Below are positions 13,614 to 30,204 of a stretch of DNA of 64,000 nt, piece after piece. The notes under the pieces were generated by a model. The model was not told the origin of the DNA, searched no databases, and worked only from the letters and a program-made list of their open reading frames with translations. Every line of letters starts with the position of its first letter. The first letter of the stretch is position 1. The position numbers and the translations under genes were made by a program. The DNA is from Halobacteriovorax sp. JY17 (lineage in GTDB: Bacteria > Bdellovibrionota > Bacteriovoracia > Bacteriovoracales > Bacteriovoracaceae): contig NZ_NJER01000001.1 of NCBI RefSeq assembly GCF_002753895.1, forward strand, positions 1,612,910-1,676,909. The letters run 5' to 3'.

Positions 13614-15785
13614 ATGAGAAAAGTGCAACTTAAGACAAAGCTTCTATTTATTTCGGGTGGAATGGTATTTCTTTTTGGTCTAATAGTATTATTCCAATTT
13701 GAACAAGGTCTAAAAAAACAAAGAGCAAGCATTGTCGATAGCTTTTCACTTTACTCAGATTCTCTTTCAAACTCAGTCTCACAAGTATTCTATTCTCAGT
13801 ATAATAATGTGCAGGCCTTTGCTAAAAATAATGCTCTTAAAAATTATGAAGACAAAGAAACAATGAAGTTTATCTTGAATGAAATCATTACTCTTTACCC
13901 AATGAATGATGTTCTTATTATTACAGATATGAAAGGGAACTTTATTGGAAGTTCGTCTATCAATGCAAATGGTAAGGCAATTCAATCGAATGTTTTTGAA
14001 GGACATAATTTTTCTAATGAAGAATGGTTCAAAGATACCGTTGGTGGCAAATTAACTCAAAACTTTAAAAAGAAAATTTTTGGTTCAAGACTAGGAAAAC
14101 CTAAGAATGATGAATTAATTTCAAAAGCCTATGGAAATAAGAGGTATGGAACACACTTTACAACTTTATTGGAAGATGAATATGGTGATCCTCTCGGAGT
14201 TTTAACTGCATTTACAAATTACCAGTGGGTTGAAAGTGAACTTGACTCTCTCTATCACTCTCTTAAGTCTTCAGGTAAAGATGACATCTCTATTTACATT
14301 CTTGATTCAAATGGAGATCTTCTTTCTTCTCTAGGGAGAAATAAAGAGGGAGCGTATGTTATACAGAGAGAGGCTGGTAAGAATTTATTTTCTTTTAATA
14401 ATGAAGTTTCAAAAGAGCTAAAAGAAGGAAAGAAGGGAAGTCTTGTTACAAATACTTTCTTTGGAAGTAATGAATCTCTCTATGCTTTTCAAAAAATTGA
14501 AAATGAGAAGTTCGTTAGCTCAATTGGTTGGTCCGTAATCGTAGGGATGAATCCAAAAGTTGCATTTGAAGATATTAGAACCCTTAGAGAACTATTCTAT
14601 TGGACGTTTGGTATTATGTTAGTTATTTGCCTTATTGTTTCTTACCTCATATCAAATAATCTATATAAGAAATTGACTGAGGTTATATCTGGATTGAAAG
14701 AGAGTTTTGGCCGTACAGTGGGCCTTGTAGATGATCTTCAAGGTATGTCATCTAAAGTTTCTGATATGTCGACTCATCAGGCATCGGCAATTCAAGAAAC
14801 AGCTTCAACTCTCGACGAAGTATCTCAAATGGTAAAGATGAGTGCTCAAAATGCAGAGAAGTCTGTTGAAGTCGCTAAGAGTTCAGAGAATAATGCAAAT
14901 GAAGGAAAGAAAATTGTTTCACAAGTTCTCGATTCAATGAATGAGATAAAGTCTAGTAATGAAGAAATTTTAGAGCAGACAACTGAAAGTAATAAGAAAT
15001 TTAATGACATTGTAAAAGTTATTAATGAAATATCAGAAAAAACAAAAGTGATAAATGATATTGTTTTTCAAACTAAACTTCTTTCATTCAATGCTTCGGT
15101 AGAAGCGGCGAGAGCTGGTGAGCATGGAAAAGGTTTTGCTGTTGTTGCTGAAGAAGTTGGTAATCTTGCTCAAATGAGTGGTAAGGCCGCAGATGAAATC
15201 GGAGGAATCCTGGCAGATAGTATTTCAACAGTTGAAAAAATTGTAAGAGAGTCGCAGGATGGAATCGAAAAAATAATGGTGAAATCAAAGAATAAGATTG
15301 AAGAGGGAATTGCCATTTCAGGAAAATGTGACTCTGCTTTAAATAGTATTGTAGAAGATATTAAGAAAGTCGCAGTTATGGCAGATGAGATATCGACAGC
15401 TACGCGAGAACAGGATCAAGGTGTTTCTCAAATTGCAGAGGCCATGAATCAATTACAAACTTCAACACATGAGAACTCTCAGATTGCTGATAGGACTCTC
15501 AACTGCTCTAAACAATTAAATGAAGAATCTAACTTCTTAAATGGTGTTGTTGAAAGTTTAGAGAATGAGGTTGTTGGAGGAAAGGGAAGAAACGTATCTT
15601 CTCCTATAAAAAAGAATGATAAGAATATTCTTAACTTTAAAAAGAAAGAAGAAAAAGAGAATATTAAAAAAGCAGAGAAGAAAACTTCTAAAAAAGAAGA
15701 TATTAAGGAATCTATCAAAGAAGAGCCTCAGGTCGTTGGGTCAGACATTCCAAAAGGAGATGACCCTCGATTTGAAGATATTTAA
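13614..15785 (+). CDS. Methyl-accepting chemotaxis protein with periplasmic Cache-type sensor
   Basis: 723 residues. A transmembrane segment at about 7-27 and another at about 327-349 flank a periplasmic region of some 300 residues. That region reads as a double-Cache sensor ([17 protein letters not shown], then a second lobe near [14 protein letters not shown]). The cytoplasmic part is a long coiled coil with the conserved hairpin tip around [21 protein letters not shown] Lys/Glu-rich linker of about 70 residues leads to the C-terminus DDPRFEDI. The same RFEDI end occurs on the receptor at 24679, suggesting a tether for adaptation enzymes. It stands alone between clpX and a small secreted protein. 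GAGG precedes the ATG. Ligand unknown. Confidence 0.92.
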
Positions 15786-21387: not shown

Positions 21388-23517
21388 ATGGATGATTTTG
21401 AAAAAGAACTAAAAGAAGATTTCCTAGACGAGTCTCTTCAATTACTTGAAGACACGGAACAGTCTTTCCTAGCATTAGAAAATGATAAAGAGAGTACTGA
21501 AATTCTAGATCAAATTTTCAGACTTGCTCATAACTTAAAAGGAACCTCTAGAGCTGTTGGTTTTGGAAACGTTGCTGAGTTTACTCACGAAATGGAAAAC
21601 TTGATTTTAAAGTTAAAAACAGGTGATCTTGCAGTTACAGATAGTATGGTTTCACTTCTTCTAGAGTGTAATGACCATATAACAAATATGATCCATGGAT
21701 TAAAAGATGATATGGATGCCGAGTTTGATAGCACTGAAATTGTAGCTAATATTTTAAATGCACTCGGTGGAAATGCAGTTGCAGCTTCTGTTGAGGCTGT
21801 AGAAGACCCAGTGATTGAAGAAGTTGAAGTGCCAAGTGAAGAGCTTGTGGCTAACGCAGATAACTGGGAGTCAGATGATACTGAAGACCTAGATGGTATT
21901 CTTGATGAAGCTATTTCTGAAAAAGCAGAAGATGAAAGTTCTTCTGAGCCTGAGATTTCAGCAGCGGCACTAGAAGCCCTTAGAGAGCTTGGAAACTGTG
22001 ATGAATCGGTTATGGCCGAACTTGAAGGTGGAATAAGTTTTAGTGAACCTATGGAAGCTTTTAAAGCTGAAGAAGTTGAGCAAGAAGAACCAGAGATCTC
22101 AGCAGCGGCACTTGAGGCCTTAAGAGAGCTTGGAAACTGTGATGAAACAGTAATGGCCGAGCTTGAGAAGAATTCATCTGAAAAAAATGGATTAAAATTT
22201 AATAATGCAATTGATGATACACCGTCAATTACTCCAATTGAAAAGACTACAACGACACCTGAAACTATTACTCCGTTGGCAGCTAAGAAATCAGCGCCCG
22301 TAAAGAAAGTGACAGAAGATGAAAGTATAAGAGTCTCTCTTTCAAGAGTTGAAAAATTAAATAACGTTGTTGGGGAATTAGTTATTCTCCAAACAGTTCT
22401 TGATCAAGGAAGATTTGCCGCTTCCCAAGATCAGTTAATGAATAAGTCAATTTCACAACTTGGTAAGCTCTCTAAAGAAATTCAAGAAATATCTATGTCT
22501 CTACGAATGGTTCCAGTTAAGTCAACACTTCAAAAAATGAATAGGATTGTTAGGGATACTTCGAAAACTCTAAATAAGAAAGTTAATTTGAAATTAAATG
22601 GAGAAGAGACTGAGATTGATAAGACAGTTTTAGAGCACCTCGCTGATCCTCTTGTACACATTGTAAGAAATGCAGTGGATCATGGTCTTGAAAGCACGGA
22701 AGAGCGTATCGCGGCAGGCAAGAGTGAAGCTGGAAATGTTGGAATAAGTGCTTACCATGAAGGAAATAATCTTGTTATTGAAATTACTGACGATGGTAAA
22801 GGAATTCCTGCAAACGTTATTAGAAATAAGGCCATTGAAAAAGGTCTTATAAGAGAGAATCAGCAAATTTCTGATGAAGATATAATTCAGTACATTTTTC
22901 ATCCAGGTTTTTCTACAAAAGAACAAGTCACAGAAGTTTCTGGACGTGGTGTAGGAATGGATGTTGTTAAAACAAATATTGAAAAACTTTCTGGTGAAGT
23001 TAAAGTGAAAACAGAACTAGGTAAGGGAAGCGTTTTTAAAGTTGTTCTACCATTAACGATGGCAATCATCGATGGAATGGTTATTAGAGTTGGTGATAAT
23101 AAATTTATCATACCACTTTCACAGGTTCATGAGTCTTTAAAGCCAACAAAAGAAATGGTGAGTAAAGTAACAGGCTGGGGTGAGTGTTTAAATCTAAGAG
23201 GACAGATACTTCCGCTATTTAGTGTTGGCGGTACTTTGTCTGTAGCAATGGATGAGGGAAACTCTTTAGATAAGATTGCAATTATTATACAAGCGGCAGA
23301 ACATCCATTTGCTGTTCTTGTTGACGATATTTTACATCAGCAACAAGTTGTTATTAAAAACCTTGGAAATGAAATTAAAAGTAGTAAAGGATTTATGGGA
23401 AGTTCAATTCTAGGTGATGGGAAGCCATCTTTTATTCTAGATCTGAATGAATTATATAGTGGGAAAATGAAGAAAAGTTCAAGTATTAAAGAAGATTTAA
23501 TAGGAAAGGTGGCGTAA
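21388..23517 (+). CDS. cheA: Chemotaxis histidine kinase CheA
   Basis: 709 residues. The Hpt (P1) domain covers about 1-115, with the phosphorylated His48 in RLAHNLKGTSRAVGF. An acidic linker (about 120-310) holds a 27-residue segment repeated almost exactly at residues 187-213 and 234-260; no folded CheY-binding P2 domain is recognisable. The P3 dimerisation segment begins near SIRVSLSRVEKLNNVVGEL. The ATPase follows (HIVRNAVDHGLE, then GRGVGMDVV), and a CheW-like P5 domain forms the C-terminus. The kinase phosphorylates a CheY and CheB in response to the receptors; a separate cheY is not in the window. Its stop overlaps the cheW start by one base. Confidence 0.95.
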   Translation: MDDFEKELKEDFLDESLQLLEDTEQSFLALENDKESTEILDQIFRLAHNLKGTSRAVGFGNVAEFTHEMENLILKLKTGDLAVTDSMVSLLLECNDHITNMIHGLKDDMDAEFDSTEIVANILNALGGNAVAASVEAVEDPVIEEVEVPSEELVANADNWESDDTEDLDGILDEAISEKAEDESSSEPEISAAALEALRELGNCDESVMAELEGGISFSEPMEAFKAEEVEQEEPEISAAALEALRELGNCDETVMAELEKNSSEKNGLKFNNAIDDTPSITPIEKTTTTPETITPLAAKKSAPVKKVTEDESIRVSLSRVEKLNNVVGELVILQTVLDQGRFAASQDQLMNKSISQLGKLSKEIQEISMSLRMVPVKSTLQKMNRIVRDTSKTLNKKVNLKLNGEETEIDKTVLEHLADPLVHIVRNAVDHGLESTEERIAAGKSEAGNVGISAYHEGNNLVIEITDDGKGIPANVIRNKAIEKGLIRENQQISDEDIIQYIFHPGFSTKEQVTEVSGRGVGMDVVKTNIEKLSGEVKVKTELGKGSVFKVVLPLTMAIIDGMVIRVGDNKFIIPLSQVHESLKPTKEMVSKVTGWGECLNLRGQILPLFSVGGTLSVAMDEGNSLDKIAIIIQAAEHPFAVLVDDILHQQQVVIKNLGNEIKSSKGFMGSSILGDGKPSFILDLNELYSGKMKKSSSIKEDLIGKVA
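21946..22167 (+). repeat. Duplicated 27-codon segment within cheA
   Basis: Codons at 21946-22026 and 22087-22167 encode the same 27 residues with one Ser/Thr difference. The core is ISAAALEALRELGNCDE. The period is 141 bases. The DNA copies differ at several synonymous positions (for example ctagaagccctt against cttgaggcctta), so the protein motif appears to be held by selection rather than being a fresh duplication. Confidence 0.9.
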
Positions 23518-24023
23518 TGAACGAAGAAAAACTAAATCAAAGCTTATCAATTGTAGGTGAAGAAAACTCAGAGCTACAGCGCTTCTTAGAATTCAGTTTA
23601 GGAGAAGAGGAGTATGCAATTCCACTTCTATCTGTAAGAGAAGTTATATCTGTTCCTGAGACAACACCAATTCCAAAGGCTCCAAGCCACTTCTTAGGAA
23701 TTATGAATCTAAGAGGACAAGTTATCTCAGTTGTTGATATGAGAACAAAATTAAAAATTAAGGCAAAAGAAAATAACTCTGAAGAGAGCGTTATTATTGT
23801 GGACCTTGATGGCATGAACTTAGGAATTGTTGTTGACTCTATTAATAAAGTTCTAGCTTTTACGTTAAAAGATATTAATGAGGTTCCAGAAATTGAAACT
23901 CAAGTAAACGCTGAATATATTTATGGGGTTTACAGAAAAGAAGACTCTCTAACTGTTTTATTAAATGTCGCTAAAGTTCTAGATATAAAAGACGTAAGCG
24001 CTCTTGCTAAGAAAGCTGCTTAA
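23517..24023 (+). CDS. cheW: Chemotaxis coupling protein CheW
   Basis: 168 residues, a single CheW domain linking chemoreceptors to CheA. LEFSLGEEEYAIPLLSVREVIS opens the domain. FLGIMNLRGQVISVVDMRTKL is the conserved NLRG core, and GIVVDSINKVLAF follows. The start ATG shares its A with the cheA stop (TAATG), so translation is coupled. A terminator follows at 24055, so the downstream che genes may be expressed partly independently. Confidence 0.96.
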   Translation: MNEEKLNQSLSIVGEENSELQRFLEFSLGEEEYAIPLLSVREVISVPETTPIPKAPSHFLGIMNLRGQVISVVDMRTKLKIKAKENNSEESVIIVDLDGMNLGIVVDSINKVLAFTLKDINEVPEIETQVNAEYIYGVYRKEDSLTVLLNVAKVLDIKDVSALAKKAA

Positions 24024-24214: not shown

Positions 24215-24223
24215 TAGCTAGTA
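24196..24223 (+). repeat. Four perfect tandem copies of the 7-bp unit GCTAGTA
   Basis: GCTAGTA is repeated exactly four times. Seven is not a multiple of three, so each gain or loss shifts the frame. I worked through the copy numbers from ATG 24179. One copy meets TGA. Two copies read straight into the downstream frame. Three, four or more copies meet TAG. The present four-copy allele is therefore off for the full-length precursor. Slipped-strand mispairing is the expected mechanism of change. Confidence 0.95.
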
Positions 24224-24642
24224 TGATTGGAATGTCGTTTTTAAGTGTGAATGCAGCAGACTGCACAAAAGAACAAGCAAAAGAGTCGGTTGAAAAAATG
24301 TGTGGGCTTATCTCTTCAAAAGGGAAGGGAGCTCTAGGAGAAATTGGTAAATTTCGTTTCTGTGGATCAAACTACGTTTGGATTCAAGATAAAGATGTGA
24401 ATATGGTTCTTCATCCAATTAAGAGAAGACTTAATGGAAAATCTTTAAAAGCTAGTAAAGATGAAAACGGAAAAGCTCTATTTGTTGAGTTCGACAAAAT
24501 GGCTAAGGCAAATGCTGCTGGTGGCTGGGTTGATTATGTATGGGCAAAACCAGGTGCTGAAAAAGCAACACCAAAAGTTTCGTATGTAAAAGTTTGTGGT
24601 GGTGATCTGGGATGGATTGCTGGTGCAGGTGTTTGGAAATAA
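24223..24642 (+). CDS. Stand-alone periplasmic Cache-domain protein, signal peptide split by a repeat
   Basis: The intact frame from ATG 24223 gives 139 residues, but this ATG has no ribosome-binding site and leaves only a stub of signal peptide (MIGMSFLSVNAA). The original start is ATG 24179; with two repeat copies the product would be 149 residues beginning MKVKKMLVASMIGMSFLSVN, a complete signal peptide cleaved after NAA. The mature part reads as a single Cache sensor domain: NYVWIQDKDVNMVLHP, a KSLKASKDENGKALF loop, GGWVDYVWAKPG and GDLGWIAGAGVW. It has four cysteines. It lies 36 bases before a chemoreceptor gene and could present ligands to it. Weak expression by restart after the TAG at 24212 is possible. 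Confidence 0.8.
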   Translation: MIGMSFLSVNAADCTKEQAKESVEKMCGLISSKGKGALGEIGKFRFCGSNYVWIQDKDVNMVLHPIKRRLNGKSLKASKDENGKALFVEFDKMAKANAAGGWVDYVWAKPGAEKATPKVSYVKVCGGDLGWIAGAGVWK

Positions 24643-24678: not shown

Positions 24679-26916
24679 GTGAGTAATATACAAAAACAAA
24701 AGAGTTTTCAATTTAAGTTACTTTTAACCATTGTGATTGTAGGCTTTGTCTGCATATCAATTGTTGCTAGTGTTTCCTATTTTAAGTCAAAAAATGCTCT
24801 ACAAGCGCAGTCTATAAATCAATTTTCAAGTATGGGTGAGATGATGAAGAATCGTCTCACCGTATTTGAGAAACAGACAAAGACATTCTCAGAAAGGTTG
24901 GGGCAAAACAGGCTGATTGAAGGTCTATTCTTAGCTTATGAGAGTGCTTTCTATGGTGCGAGTCTTTTTCCTGGTACCGATCAGAATATAAATACAACCC
25001 AGTATAAAGAATTAGAGAAAATTTACGGTGATAGAACGAAGGAATTAGTACAAGATTTTTCATTAGAGAATATCTTGTTAGTTTCTTTAGATTCTCAAGT
25101 TATAATGTCAGCAAAGGTGGACTCCAAAGGGGATTACCTAGGACGAAATTTAAATGAGGGGAAGTATAAAGATTCTCTTCTTACTAAGTGTTATCAAGCA
25201 GCTCTTGCTGACGAAAAAGCTGGTCTTCACTTTAGTGAGTACGAATTTAACCCTGTTACTAATTCAGTACAATCGTTCTTTTGTATAAGACAGAGAGCTG
25301 AATTCGATCACTTATCTGAAGGAATTAATAAAGGCGACAATATGGGAGTTGTAATCTCTCAGATTAATATAAATGAAATGAACTCTATCATGTCGAGTCG
25401 TGTCGGTATGGGAGAAACTGGTCAAGTCTATTTAGTAGGATTTGACAATCTACTTAGAACAGACTTCTTTGTAAATAAAGAAGAGTTTAATGTTATTGAT
25501 TCATTTAAGAATAAGAAAGAAGTTCATTCAGAGTCAATTGATAAGGCAATTGAAAAAAATGCTGGAACTCACTTTATTATAGATCCTAATGGAAAAGAAG
25601 TCCTAAGCTACTATTCTAATGTTGAGATGTTTGGGAATACTTGGGGATTAATTGCTGAAATTCAAACCGAAGAAATGTTTGCGCCCGTTAGGGCAATGAT
25701 GATTTCAATGTCACTTCTTTCGGGAATAGCACTTGTAGTAATTATTGTTATTGGAGCTTTCGTAACAAAGAGACTAGTTAAACCAATTGCTGACGCTAAT
25801 AAGATTCTTGGAAGTGTTGCTGAAGAAGTGAGTGGAAATGCTGATAAAATGAAATCAAATTCAGTTGATCTAAGTGATGGTTCAACTAAAATAGCCTCAG
25901 CGATACAGGAGACCGTTTCAACTCTAGATGAACTATCCTCAATGGTTAGTAGAAATTTAGAGAATGTAGAGCTTTCAAGCCAAAAGTCTAGAGAATCAAA
26001 GGAGGTCGCAGAAGCAGGTAAGGTTTCTGTTACTAGTATGATTACAGCAATGAGTGAAATAAATGGATCAAATTCAGATATCGTTAAAGAGATGGATAAT
26101 ATTAGTCAGAAAATGAATGAGATTATTACAGTAATTAATGAGATTGGAAGTAAGACTGACATAATAAATGATATTGTTTTTCAGACGAAACTTCTCTCTT
26201 TTAATGCTTCTGTTGAAGCTGCAAGAGCAGGAGAGCATGGGAAGGGCTTTGCTGTGGTGGCCGAAGAGGTTGGTTCTCTGGCAACTGCTAGTGGGAGTGC
26301 TGCAACCGAAATTAGTGAGATGCTTGGAGAGAGTGTCAAAAAAGTTGAAGCGATTGTCGCTGATTCAAAATCAAAGCTAGAGTCTCTCTCAAATATTGGA
26401 AAAGAGAAAGTTGATGTGGGAACTAGGACGGCAAATGAATGTGAACAAGTCTTAGACCAAATTTTATTAAATGTTTTAGAAGTGAATGATAAAGTTTCTG
26501 AAATTACTAATGCTTCAAATGAGCAAGCAATTGGAATTGAGGAAGTATCAAAGGCCATGAGTCAATTAGATGAGATGACTCATCAGACATCACTTATTTC
26601 CACAGAAGCTCTAGAGTCATCTGAAGGACTTAATGGACAAGCTAATAAATTGTCTATAGTAGTGGAAAGTTTGAGTCTTCTAGTTTCTGGAGGATCTAAA
26701 ATCGTAGAGAGCTCAAAAGAAAAACAGCAAGTTAGCTCGAAAAAACAAGATAACCATAAGACAGCAGAAGTTCATGATATTTCTTTAAATTCACCTGTGA
26801 AAAGAGCCGAAGAGGTAGAGAGTGAAGGAGAGGAATTGAGTACTCCCAAAGAAGTAAATTTAAAAGCGAGTCACGATTTACCAAGTCGTGAAGATAGTCG
26901 TTTTGAAGATATTTAA
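24679..26916 (+). CDS. Methyl-accepting chemotaxis protein with double-Cache-like sensor
   Basis: 745 residues, GTG start with AGGAA upstream. TM1 is at about 14-34 and TM2 at about 346-368. The periplasmic region of about 310 residues has a dCache-like pattern ([20 protein letters not shown], then [19 protein letters not shown]). A HAMP-like stretch and long coiled coil lead to the conserved tip [20 protein letters not shown], identical to that of the receptor at 13614. The C-terminus is a disordered linker ending REDSRFEDI. It follows the Cache protein and precedes the cheR fusion by 13 bases, so this receptor is probably the main client of the operon's adaptation enzymes. Confidence 0.93.
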
Positions 26917-26929
26917 ATAAGGATAATAC

Positions 26930-28792
26930 ATGAGCATTGCAAATAAACTAGTTGAAGATTCTTACGATTTACTAGTTGAAAAAGTTAGTACGATTGTTGC
27001 TCGAATTTCTGGAAATGTTTTAGGCGAAAAGCAAGCGTTAATGGTTCAAACACGTATCAAGAAACGCATGAGCGAACTAGGTCTTTCAACTGCAGAAGAG
27101 TATATACGTCACATTGATTTACACAAAGAAAAAGAAGCCGGAGTTCTTGTCTCCTTGCTGACTACTCACCATACATTCTTCTTTAGAGAGTTTACACATT
27201 TTGAACATTTGAAAACAAACTTACCAGAACTTATTGGGAAGGTTAAGGCCCGTGGTGAGAATACTATAAAAATTTGGTCGGCAGCTTGTAGTCGTGGGCA
27301 AGAAGTCTATTCTCTTTCTATGTTTCTCGACTTCTATCTTCCAAAAATAGACCCTACAATGAAGTATAAAATTATCGGAAGTGATATTGATCCAGAATCT
27401 GTACGTATCGCACAGAATGGTGTTTACCACCGTAGAGAAATTAAGTCAGTTCCTATGAACTATCTCGCAAATCACTGGGCGAGAGGGACAGGGGAGATTT
27501 CAGACTTTGTTAAAGCGAAGAAGAGTATTTCTGAAAAATGTGAGTTCAGAGTTTATAATCTACTCACTTTTCAAAAAGAAATGCGTAGTGAAAAGTTTGA
27601 TATCATCTTTTGCCGAAATGTCTTCATCTATTTTAAAACTGAGCAGATTGAAGAAATAACAAGTAACTTTTTAAAACACTTATATACAGATGGTTTTCTT
27701 TATTCAGGAATATCAGAGTCTCTAAGTGCTCTTAAAGTAGGTCTTCGAAATTGTGGACCATCAGTTTATGGACATAAAGTAATAGAAGAAGTTAAACCAG
27801 CTATGACAATTGCTGATAGAGTGACAACTCCTATTACACCTGTTGTTGAAGCTGTGACGAGTATTCCTAAGAAACTTAGAATTTTCTGTATTGATGACTC
27901 TTCAAGTATCTTAACATTACTTAAGAAAGTTTTTACTAGTGATGATCAATTTGAGGTTGTAGGAACTGCTAACAATGGAATTGATGCGAGAGATCAGCTG
28001 AAACTTTTAAAAGGTAAAGTTGATGTCATTACTTTAGATATTCATATGCCTGAAATGGATGGAGTAACATATCTTGAGACGTACTATGATACAGATCATC
28101 CTCCCGTTGTAGTGATATCGTCTGCATCGAGAGATGACTCTGATGCTGCAATGAGATGTCTACGTGCAGGAGCTTCTGATTTTATCGAAAAGCCAGCTCT
28201 TAATAATTTACTTGAGAGAGGGGAAGAGATTAAAACAAAGGTTCGTGTTTCATATATTGATAAGAGTTTAACAAAGCAACATATAAGTTCTGTTGATAAA
28301 GAATTTGAAAAAGAAATAATAATTGAAGATCCTTCTTCAAAATTTAGAATTCTTGTTTCTTCGATTTCTGATCAAAAGAAGGTAGTGAAGTTCTTCCATG
28401 AGTTACATGGAGCACAGCCTGCAACACTAATGCTTTTTGAGGGACAAGATAATATTTTAGAAGCCTTGAAAGAAGATATGAGTGATAAGATTAAATACCC
28501 TATCGAGGTTATTGATTCTGTAAACGGTAAGTTTGAAGCTGGAAAAGTATATATTGCAGATTTTAAAAAAGTATTTGAACAGGCCCATCATCACCATCAA
28601 GATTCGAAAACTTCTGTGATGATATTTGGACAATGTTCTAAACATAGTGGTGAAAAAATTCTAAACTGGGGGAATGCTCAGTTACTTATCGAAGATATTG
28701 GAATTAATTCATCTCTTAGTGAAGTAGCCACAGATATTGTTCCTGTAACAAGTTTTGCTTATATGTCTTCAGAATACTTAAGTAGGAAATAA
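26930..28792 (+). CDS. CheR methyltransferase fused to a receiver and a degenerate CheB domain
   Basis: 620 residues. Residues 1-285 are CheR, which methylates receptor glutamates using SAM: HTFFFREFTHF, the SAM loop IWSAACSRGQEVYSL (usual CSTGEEPYS), IIGSDIDPESV and IIFCRNVFIYF. Residues about 315-435 are a receiver with FCIDDSS and phospho-acceptor Asp370 in VITLDIHMPEMDG. Residues about 448-620 align in order with the CheB methylesterase fold (FRILVSSIS, FEAGKVYIADFKK, SVMIFGQCSKHSG). The catalytic Ser-Thr-Gly-Gly, His and Asp motifs are missing, so this part should be inactive. AAGGA precedes the ATG. An active CheB is encoded 2 bases downstream. Confidence 0.88.
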   Translation: MSIANKLVEDSYDLLVEKVSTIVARISGNVLGEKQALMVQTRIKKRMSELGLSTAEEYIRHIDLHKEKEAGVLVSLLTTHHTFFFREFTHFEHLKTNLPELIGKVKARGENTIKIWSAACSRGQEVYSLSMFLDFYLPKIDPTMKYKIIGSDIDPESVRIAQNGVYHRREIKSVPMNYLANHWARGTGEISDFVKAKKSISEKCEFRVYNLLTFQKEMRSEKFDIIFCRNVFIYFKTEQIEEITSNFLKHLYTDGFLYSGISESLSALKVGLRNCGPSVYGHKVIEEVKPAMTIADRVTTPITPVVEAVTSIPKKLRIFCIDDSSSILTLLKKVFTSDDQFEVVGTANNGIDARDQLKLLKGKVDVITLDIHMPEMDGVTYLETYYDTDHPPVVVISSASRDDSDAAMRCLRAGASDFIEKPALNNLLERGEEIKTKVRVSYIDKSLTKQHISSVDKEFEKEIIIEDPSSKFRILVSSISDQKKVVKFFHELHGAQPATLMLFEGQDNILEALKEDMSDKIKYPIEVIDSVNGKFEAGKVYIADFKKVFEQAHHHHQDSKTSVMIFGQCSKHSGEKILNWGNAQLLIEDIGINSSLSEVATDIVPVTSFAYMSSEYLSRK

Positions 28793-28794
28793 AG

Positions 28795-30204
28795 GTGGAA
28801 AAGAATTTCTTTACTGGAAGTATTCAATCGGAGTTTTACTTCAAAGTAAACTTTGAGTGCTTTATATGTCTTGAAGTTGAATCTGGTAAGTCCTGTGCAA
28901 CTCTATTAAGTAATTTAGACTTTAAGAAAGGTCTCTTTGAAGAATTTTTAAAGAAGGCGGAGAAAGAGTTAAATACTATAAAAAGTATGATGACTATAAA
29001 GTCTGTAGGTAGTGCCAGCTTTCTTAGAGAAGTAAAGTCTAGAATAGAAGGAATCAAATTTAAAGATGAGAAGCTTGTTCAGAGAGATGAGAAGTTTGAA
29101 GTTGTTTATTATCCAAACGAAGGAAAGCTTCGTGTAAGCAAGGAAGAAGAGAAAAAAGTTGATAATAAAATTGTTAATGTTTTAATCGTAGATGATTCAA
29201 AAACGATTAGAAACTTACTAACAAAAGTTCTATCAAAGTCAGAAAAAATTAATGTTGTTGCAACGGCAGAAAAACCTAGTGATGTAGAAGAGCTGATTCG
29301 TAAACACAAACCTGATGTTATTACTTTAGATATTCATATGCCTGAAATGAATGGTGTTGAGCTTCTAAAGATTATTCAGCCTAAGTATAAAATACCTGCG
29401 ATAATGATTACGTCAGTTAGTATTGAGGAAGGACCTTTGGTTTTAGATGCTCTAGAAAGTGGAGCTTTCGATTATATTCAAAAGCCAAAAATTGAAGAAC
29501 TCTCAATCGTTGGACCATTAATGGTTGAAAAAGTTCTTGAAGCTTCAAAGTTTAAAAGTAATCGTCGAAGTTCATCAAGTATTATTAATAGATCTAAGAA
29601 TATATTTAATCAGGATTGTACGATTGTTATTGGGTCTTCAACCGGGGGAACAACTGCGTTGAAAGATATTCTCTGTGGACTTCCAAGTAATATCCCTCCG
29701 ACTCTGATTGTTCAACATATTCCCGCCGTTTTCTCTAAGGCCTTCGCTGACAGACTAAATAGCCTTTGTCCCTTCACCGTTACAGAAGCCTGTGATGGAG
29801 ATGTCGTGAAAAATAACCACGTTTACATCGCTCCTGGTGGACAGCAGATGAAAATTAAAGGAAGAGGAGATAAGAAGGTTATTCAAATTACTGATGATGC
29901 ACCTGTAAATAGATTCAAACCCTCTGTAGATTATATGTTTCAGTCCTTTGAGAGCGTAACGGCAAAAGAAAATATTATTGCAGTTATTCTTACCGGAATG
30001 GGAAAGGATGGAGCTGCAGGTATAAAGAAATTAAAAGATCTCGGAGCTCTAACGATCGCGCAAAGCGAAGAGAGTTGCGTCGTTTTTGGAATGCCTAAAG
30101 AGGCCATTGCTTTGGGAGGAGCCTCAGAGGTTGTTCATAAAGAGAATATCGCCGAGAAGATGGTTGAGTTCTCTCAGAGCTTTAAAAGAGAGCAGGCGAG
30201 CTAG
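28795..30204 (+). CDS. cheB: Protein-glutamate methylesterase CheB with N-terminal CheD-like domain
   Basis: 469 residues, about 120 longer than ordinary CheB. Residues 1-118 resemble a decayed CheD deamidase: ECFICLEVE at the place of the CheD Cys motif, KSVGSASFL like its GGASMF segment, and FEVVYYPNEGKLRV like its C-terminal strands. The catalytic His region is not recognisable. The receiver is about 127-245 with Asp179. The methylesterase domain has an intact triad: Ser282 in GSSTGG, His308 in VQHIP and Asp405 in GMGKDG. It removes methyl groups from receptors when phosphorylated by CheA. GTG start 2 bases after the cheR fusion stop. Confidence 0.88.
   Translation: MEKNFFTGSIQSEFYFKVNFECFICLEVESGKSCATLLSNLDFKKGLFEEFLKKAEKELNTIKSMMTIKSVGSASFLREVKSRIEGIKFKDEKLVQRDEKFEVVYYPNEGKLRVSKEEEKKVDNKIVNVLIVDDSKTIRNLLTKVLSKSEKINVVATAEKPSDVEELIRKHKPDVITLDIHMPEMNGVELLKIIQPKYKIPAIMITSVSIEEGPLVLDALESGAFDYIQKPKIEELSIVGPLMVEKVLEASKFKSNRRSSSSIINRSKNIFNQDCTIVIGSSTGGTTALKDILCGLPSNIPPTLIVQHIPAVFSKAFADRLNSLCPFTVTEACDGDVVKNNHVYIAPGGQQMKIKGRGDKKVIQITDDAPVNRFKPSVDYMFQSFESVTAKENIIAVILTGMGKDGAAGIKKLKDLGALTIAQSEESCVVFGMPKEAIALGGASEVVHKENIAEKMVEFSQSFKREQAS

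Follow-up and report, generated by a model that had tools for sequence, protein, structure and literature searches.

A gene of Halobacteriovorax sp. JY17, located at 26930–28792 (+) of the window, i.e. of the whole 64,000-nucleotide stretch of DNA analysed here (NZ_NJER01000001.1, positions 1,612,910 to 1,676,909), encodes a 620-residue fusion protein in which a predicted intact CheR methyltransferase and a phosphorylatable receiver (REC) are followed by a methylesterase fold of the CheB type, whose catalytic triad is not conserved, and a separate, predicted active CheB is encoded directly beside it. The extent of the gene was defined by its open reading frame, by Pfam and by homologues spanning the full fusion length at 35–85% identity. 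A preliminary description of this DNA had proposed the same arrangement; the reading frame, the phosphorylatable Asp370, the adjoining active CheB and the CheB-like C-terminus were all found where it had placed them, and fold, profile, conservation and phylogeny agree on the arrangement as a whole.

Pfam scanning of the fusion protein gave matches to CheR (E = 9e-47) and Response_reg (E = 9e-21), and no match beyond residue 427. The CheR part (residues 17–282; 26978–27775, +) was delimited by Pfam, by its match to PDB entries 1af7 and 1bc5 (E = 6e-33) and by conservation. R86, D154 and Y234, which we take to be the known catalytic and SAM-binding residues of CheR, were invariant in 32 homologues, and the full catalytic and SAM-binding residue pattern is, as judged from the sequence, intact. 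The protein shares this pattern with the CheR methyltransferases (PF01739; PDB 1af7), but adds a receiver and a pseudo-CheB domain, whereas classical CheR has no receiver. The receiver (residues 314–440; 27869–28249, +) was assigned to the CheB type by Pfam, conservation and a receiver tree; D322, D323, D370, S398 and K421 were invariant in the 32 homologues, so that the acidic pocket, the phospho-accepting Asp, the Thr/Ser and the Lys are all present. In the AlphaFold2 model of the receiver and C-terminal domain (CTD), an extended receiver helix (H112–138 of the model) runs into the linker (residues 424–450; 28199–28279, +).

The last ~170 residues of the protein adopt the CheB methylesterase fold and are homologous to CheB. 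AlphaFold2 modelled residues 449–620 from a 32-row alignment with a pLDDT of 88.8 and a pTM of 0.85; residues 449–470 formed a linker and a short helix, and the fold proper (residues 471–620; 28340–28792, +), delimited by AlphaFold2, Foldseek and hhalign, started at about residue 471 (nucleotide 28340). In a Foldseek search of the PDB the best eight matches were all CheB (TM = 0.63–0.69, E = 1e-6 to 1.5e-5), and the first match after these came at E = 3e-3. By hhalign, the CTD profile matched the CheB catalytic domain at E = 6e-7 (32 × 41 sequences) and E = 2e-7 (68 × 115 sequences), with scores of 47–49, compared with 14–16 (E = 0.06–0.4) for control comparisons, which included receiver, SAM-domain and CheB-extension profiles. 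The CTD HMM also retrieved the adjoining or other CheB genes of many genomes (E = 1e-3 to 6e-8). Single sequences told far less: the fusion protein itself had no match to Pfam CheB (PF01339) above the cut-off, only 2 of 32 single CTD homologues reached CheB in Pfam (best E = 0.003), and the CTD was nearly invisible in single-sequence Pfam and NCBIfam scans. In a profile search of PDB sequences 1chd ranked top, yet at E = 0.083.

An unrelated fold for the C-terminus, the outcome that would have contradicted the preliminary description, was ruled out by AlphaFold2 and Foldseek, and a chance similarity to CheB by the control profile comparisons. Two further candidates were rejected: a HycI-like protease (weak Pfam match, E = 0.03) had no structural support, and kinship of the CTD with CheD scored at background (hhalign score 14–16). 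The three motif pairs on which the CheB assignment had originally been based were reproduced by profile-profile alignment, in which FRILVSS aligned with the GSSTGG strand, FEAGKVYIA with VYIAPGG, and MIFGQCSKHSG with LTGMGKDG, the last in a low-confidence part of the alignment. When the receiver and CTD were compared with whole CheB, they were co-linear over ~350 columns at 19–20% identity with an rmsd of 15 Å, and in their joint AlphaFold2 model both domains were confident at an overall pTM of 0.53; these values support the domain order, and neither a CheB-like packing nor a gating interface is predicted by them. The CTD thus has the fold, the receiver-then-esterase order and the profile homology in common with CheB (PF01339; PDB 1chd, 1a2o, 6ymz), but it is shorter, is attached to CheR, has no conserved triad and carries a new conserved C-terminal motif.

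Among 68 CTD homologues, the STGG, QHIP and TGMGxDG motifs were not conserved. The column of the catalytic Ser held Ser in 33 of the 68 (Ser478 in the window protein), that of the catalytic His held Glu in 45 (Glu504 in the window protein), and the region of the catalytic Asp (residues 568–573) was variable. Since these columns vary, the triad is not a conserved feature of the CTD, and the esterase is predicted to be dead. The earlier claim that the Ser-Thr-Gly-Gly, His and Asp motifs are gone therefore holds for the motifs as conserved features, but not strictly for the Ser column, where Ser478 persists. Nor is the protein a CheR joined to an active CheB in one chain, its esterase half having no triad. 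The strongest conservation in the CTD fell on D589, P605, T607, S608, F609, Y611, Y/F616 and L617, and its most conserved element was a C-terminal helix of the pattern D-h-x-P-x-T-S-F-x-Y (residues 603–620; 28736–28789, +), a motif that is invariant or nearly so; even the most decayed tails retained P-x-x-S or a similar motif. Conservation is, by these alignments, shifted from the old active site to the C-terminal helix. The dN/dS of the CTD within the genus was 0.05–0.15, comparable to that of CheR and the receiver, the values being rough because synonymous changes are saturated or nearly so; this places the CTD under purifying selection.

The stop codon of the fusion gene and the start of the adjoining cheB are separated by 2 bases. 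The CheB (28795–30204, +; reading frame, Pfam and motifs) has 469 residues with GSSTGG, QHIP and TGMGKDG intact, and is the only CheB of a genome that also contains two CheR and one CheD, the latter adjoining the other, stand-alone CheR. Its N-terminal extension of about 118 residues (28795–29148, +) is a probable decayed CheD, as assigned by hhalign and by the fusions of relatives. Against CheD profiles hhalign gave Prob 75 and E = 2.5e-5, with controls near or below 1%, and across all comparisons Prob 59–81 and E = 9.5e-5 to 1.3e-5; the extension had no match to Pfam CheD (PF03975), no match in a profile search of PDB sequences and, across 34 extensions, no conserved Cys or His column. Relatives carry true CheD-receiver-CheB fusions (L103, L104, L155, L162, L163, L194 and L198), and the CheB at L218 (genome G181) bears a CheD still recognisable by Pfam (E = 4e-11), in which the GSC present in nearly all aligned CheDs reads NNS, i.e. 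the Cys is lost. The profile match, the fusions of the relatives and the G181 intermediate together indicate that the extension in the window is probably a further-decayed CheD, descended from a CheD-receiver-CheB fusion. Such fusions are the probable ancestor type of the adjoining CheB; their CheD is recognisable, mostly with GSC, whereas the extension in the window is beyond Pfam recognition.

Both the CheR and the receiver trees placed the fusion protein among active CheR-receiver-CheB fusions. In the CheR tree the CTD lineage, including its shortened and fused members, formed one clade (100/99), whose nearest neighbours were active CheR-REC-CheB fusions (95/75, then 97/88); in the receiver tree, receivers of the CTD lineage grouped with those of four active fusions (98), apart from the receivers of separate CheBs. 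Descent from an active CheR-receiver-CheB fusion is therefore most likely, the direction resting on stand-alone CheRs as outgroup and on parsimony, with no computed root. The active fusions (L022, L201, L101, L102, L105 and L200) have the same domain order and are the nearest relatives in the trees, but in them the catalytic domain of CheB is retained (the motifs were examined in L022, L101 and L102). Another fusion, L023, arose separately according to the CheR tree. In the simplest reading, an active fusion would have undergone decay of its esterase half once a second CheB was available to demethylate.

With a cut-off of E < 1e-13, 93 of the 369 genomes searched in the phylum carried the CTD; they belong to many families, and the architecture nearly always had an active CheB next to it. 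In a scan of genome contigs, full-length relatives occurred almost only in Bdellovibrionota-type records, and the closest relatives with a name came from Bacteriovorax and further Bdellovibrionota records. When mapped by domain, the retrieved loci read CheR-REC-CTD followed by extension-REC-CheB: 59 of the 67 unique CheR-REC-CTD proteins were accompanied by a REC-CheB gene within the retrieved sequence, and for the remaining 8 several stretches end too early to tell. In all 59 adjacent CheBs the receiver started at residue 108–197 of the open frame, i.e. behind a long N-terminal extension, and every complete neighbouring CheB examined kept the three catalytic motifs. Genome G181 is an exception, with the CheR fusion alone and CheBs elsewhere. 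Natural single chains of the order CheR-REC-CTD-extension-REC-CheB were observed at L171 (1181 residues), L181 (1109 residues) and L099, the last cut at the end of its stretch and with a middle part too diverged for profiles. Within the CTD clade, L017 (834-residue frame from 941, +) and L019 (802-residue frame from 4995, +) encode CheR-REC-REC-CheB single chains; these have neither the pseudo-CheB nor the CheB extension and keep CheR, so the CTD is dispensable there. At L195 (G195), a CheR-REC with a shortened tail lies beside a 356-residue CheB without N-terminal extension; its sister L196 keeps the extension.

In the window, the cluster further comprises CheA (21388–23517, +) and CheW (23517–24023, +), both recognised by reading the sequence of their frames, and a chemoreceptor (MCP; 24679–26916, +; reading frame and tail comparison) upstream of the CheR fusion, ending in RFEDI (26899–26913). 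Directly upstream of the chemoreceptor, a frame of 139 residues (24223–24642) has, by eye, a possible signal peptide and a single-Cache-like sequence.

As to function, we consider it on balance probable, if by a modest degree, that the receiver and pseudo-esterase regulate the attached methyltransferase, by a gating mechanism that is itself conjectural. CheA of the same cluster would phosphorylate Asp370; the receiver, via its long helix, would move or release the pseudo-esterase; this shift would change the activity of CheR or its access to receptors, and methylation as well as demethylation would thereby come under CheA control. Contact would likely be made by the conserved TSF helix at the C-terminus. 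A phosphorylation-gated methyltransferase with a docking or inhibitory pseudoenzyme, as the preliminary description had proposed, is consistent with the invariant receiver residues, the purifying selection and the covariation of evolutionary rates. With the other domains removed, CTD distances had partial correlations of 0.38 with those of their own CheR and 0.31 with their own receiver, compared with 0.01 for the CheB catalytic domain and 0.02 for the CheB receiver; the measure is correlational, uses one distance measure, and its matrices are confounded by shared gene history. Covariation with the own CheR and receiver and not with the CheB core favours intramolecular regulation over docking to CheB. 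The joint model of receiver and CTD, which predicts no CheB-like gating interface, and the loss of the CTD from L017 and L019 weigh against gating. A precedent for a methylation-limiting C-terminal domain on a CheR-type enzyme is FrzF, whose TPR tail is reported to restrict methylation to one site (PMC3447774). A C-terminal domain is common to both proteins, made of TPR repeats in FrzF and preceded by a receiver and built on a CheB fold here.

The main rival, which could combine with gating, is that the pseudo-CheB may serve mainly as a docking module joining CheR and CheB into one adaptation complex, perhaps via the CheB extension; we rate it as possible, though on the unlikely side. The adjacency of the genes with just 2 bases between them, the long extension in 59 of 59 unique adjacent CheBs, the four independent covalent fusions of both proteins in the clade and the joint absence of CTD and extension from the fused L017 and L019 all speak for docking, but this co-occurrence may be plain common descent. 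CTD and extension distances were correlated (partial r = 0.155, p = 0.0025), but weakly, and less than the CTD is with the CheR and receiver of the same protein. Two loci speak against docking: the CheR fusion of G181 has no CheB next to it, the CheBs lying elsewhere, and L195, which with L196 offers a natural contrast for the docking idea, retains a decayed P-x-x-S tail though its CheB has lost the extension.

A role of the CTD in binding the methylation helices of chemoreceptors without hydrolysis, positioning CheR on its substrate, is improbable. CheB folds bind this same receptor region, which speaks for the idea, but the CTD shows no conservation of the motifs on the substrate side (STGG, QHIP and TGMG). 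In addition, the receptors adjoining these genes share a conserved C-terminal tail of the form (N/D)DPRFE(D/E)(I/V/L/F), similar to the NWETF-type tether of CheR, and tails of this PRFEDI type make a CheR tether plausible and docking by the CTD less needed; such a tail could already dock CheR, and is also found beside a CheR without CTD (L198). The exact RFEDI-stop occurs twice in the genome, both times in the window (15768–15785 and 26899–26916); a third receptor of the genome ends in DDRFEDII. It seems very improbable that the CTD acts as an enzyme through a new active site on the CheB scaffold: conserved polar positions exist (D589, E588, T607 and S608), but they are found mainly in the final helix and where it begins, and the columns of the former triad are variable. 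A drifting relic without function, as the shortened CTDs of some lineages (L195, L196, L020 and L098) and its loss in two might suggest, is hardly credible at all against the low dN/dS, the retention in 93 genomes and the (nearly) invariant C-terminal motif.

Our search of the open-access literature, with subscription journals outside its scope, found no description of this arrangement, and both decayed domains, the CTD and the CheB extension, are missed by annotation pipelines. Relatives with an active fusion, intermediate stages and decayed forms coexist in one phylum, making this an unusually complete history of a pseudoenzyme. We regard as rather doubtful the broader picture of nested pseudoenzymes, in which a dead CheB would be attached to CheR and a dead CheD to CheB, and the two proteins, each with its own CheA-responsive receiver, would form one methylation/demethylation complex regulated by the dead domains. 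In the textbook scheme, phosphorylation by CheA controls only demethylation, through CheB, and CheR is usually treated as constitutive. From a conserved CheR that has its own intact receiver and a pseudo-esterase one would predict that methylation, too, is directly controlled, and the arrangement suggests that in these bacteria phosphorylation may act as a switch on methylation itself.
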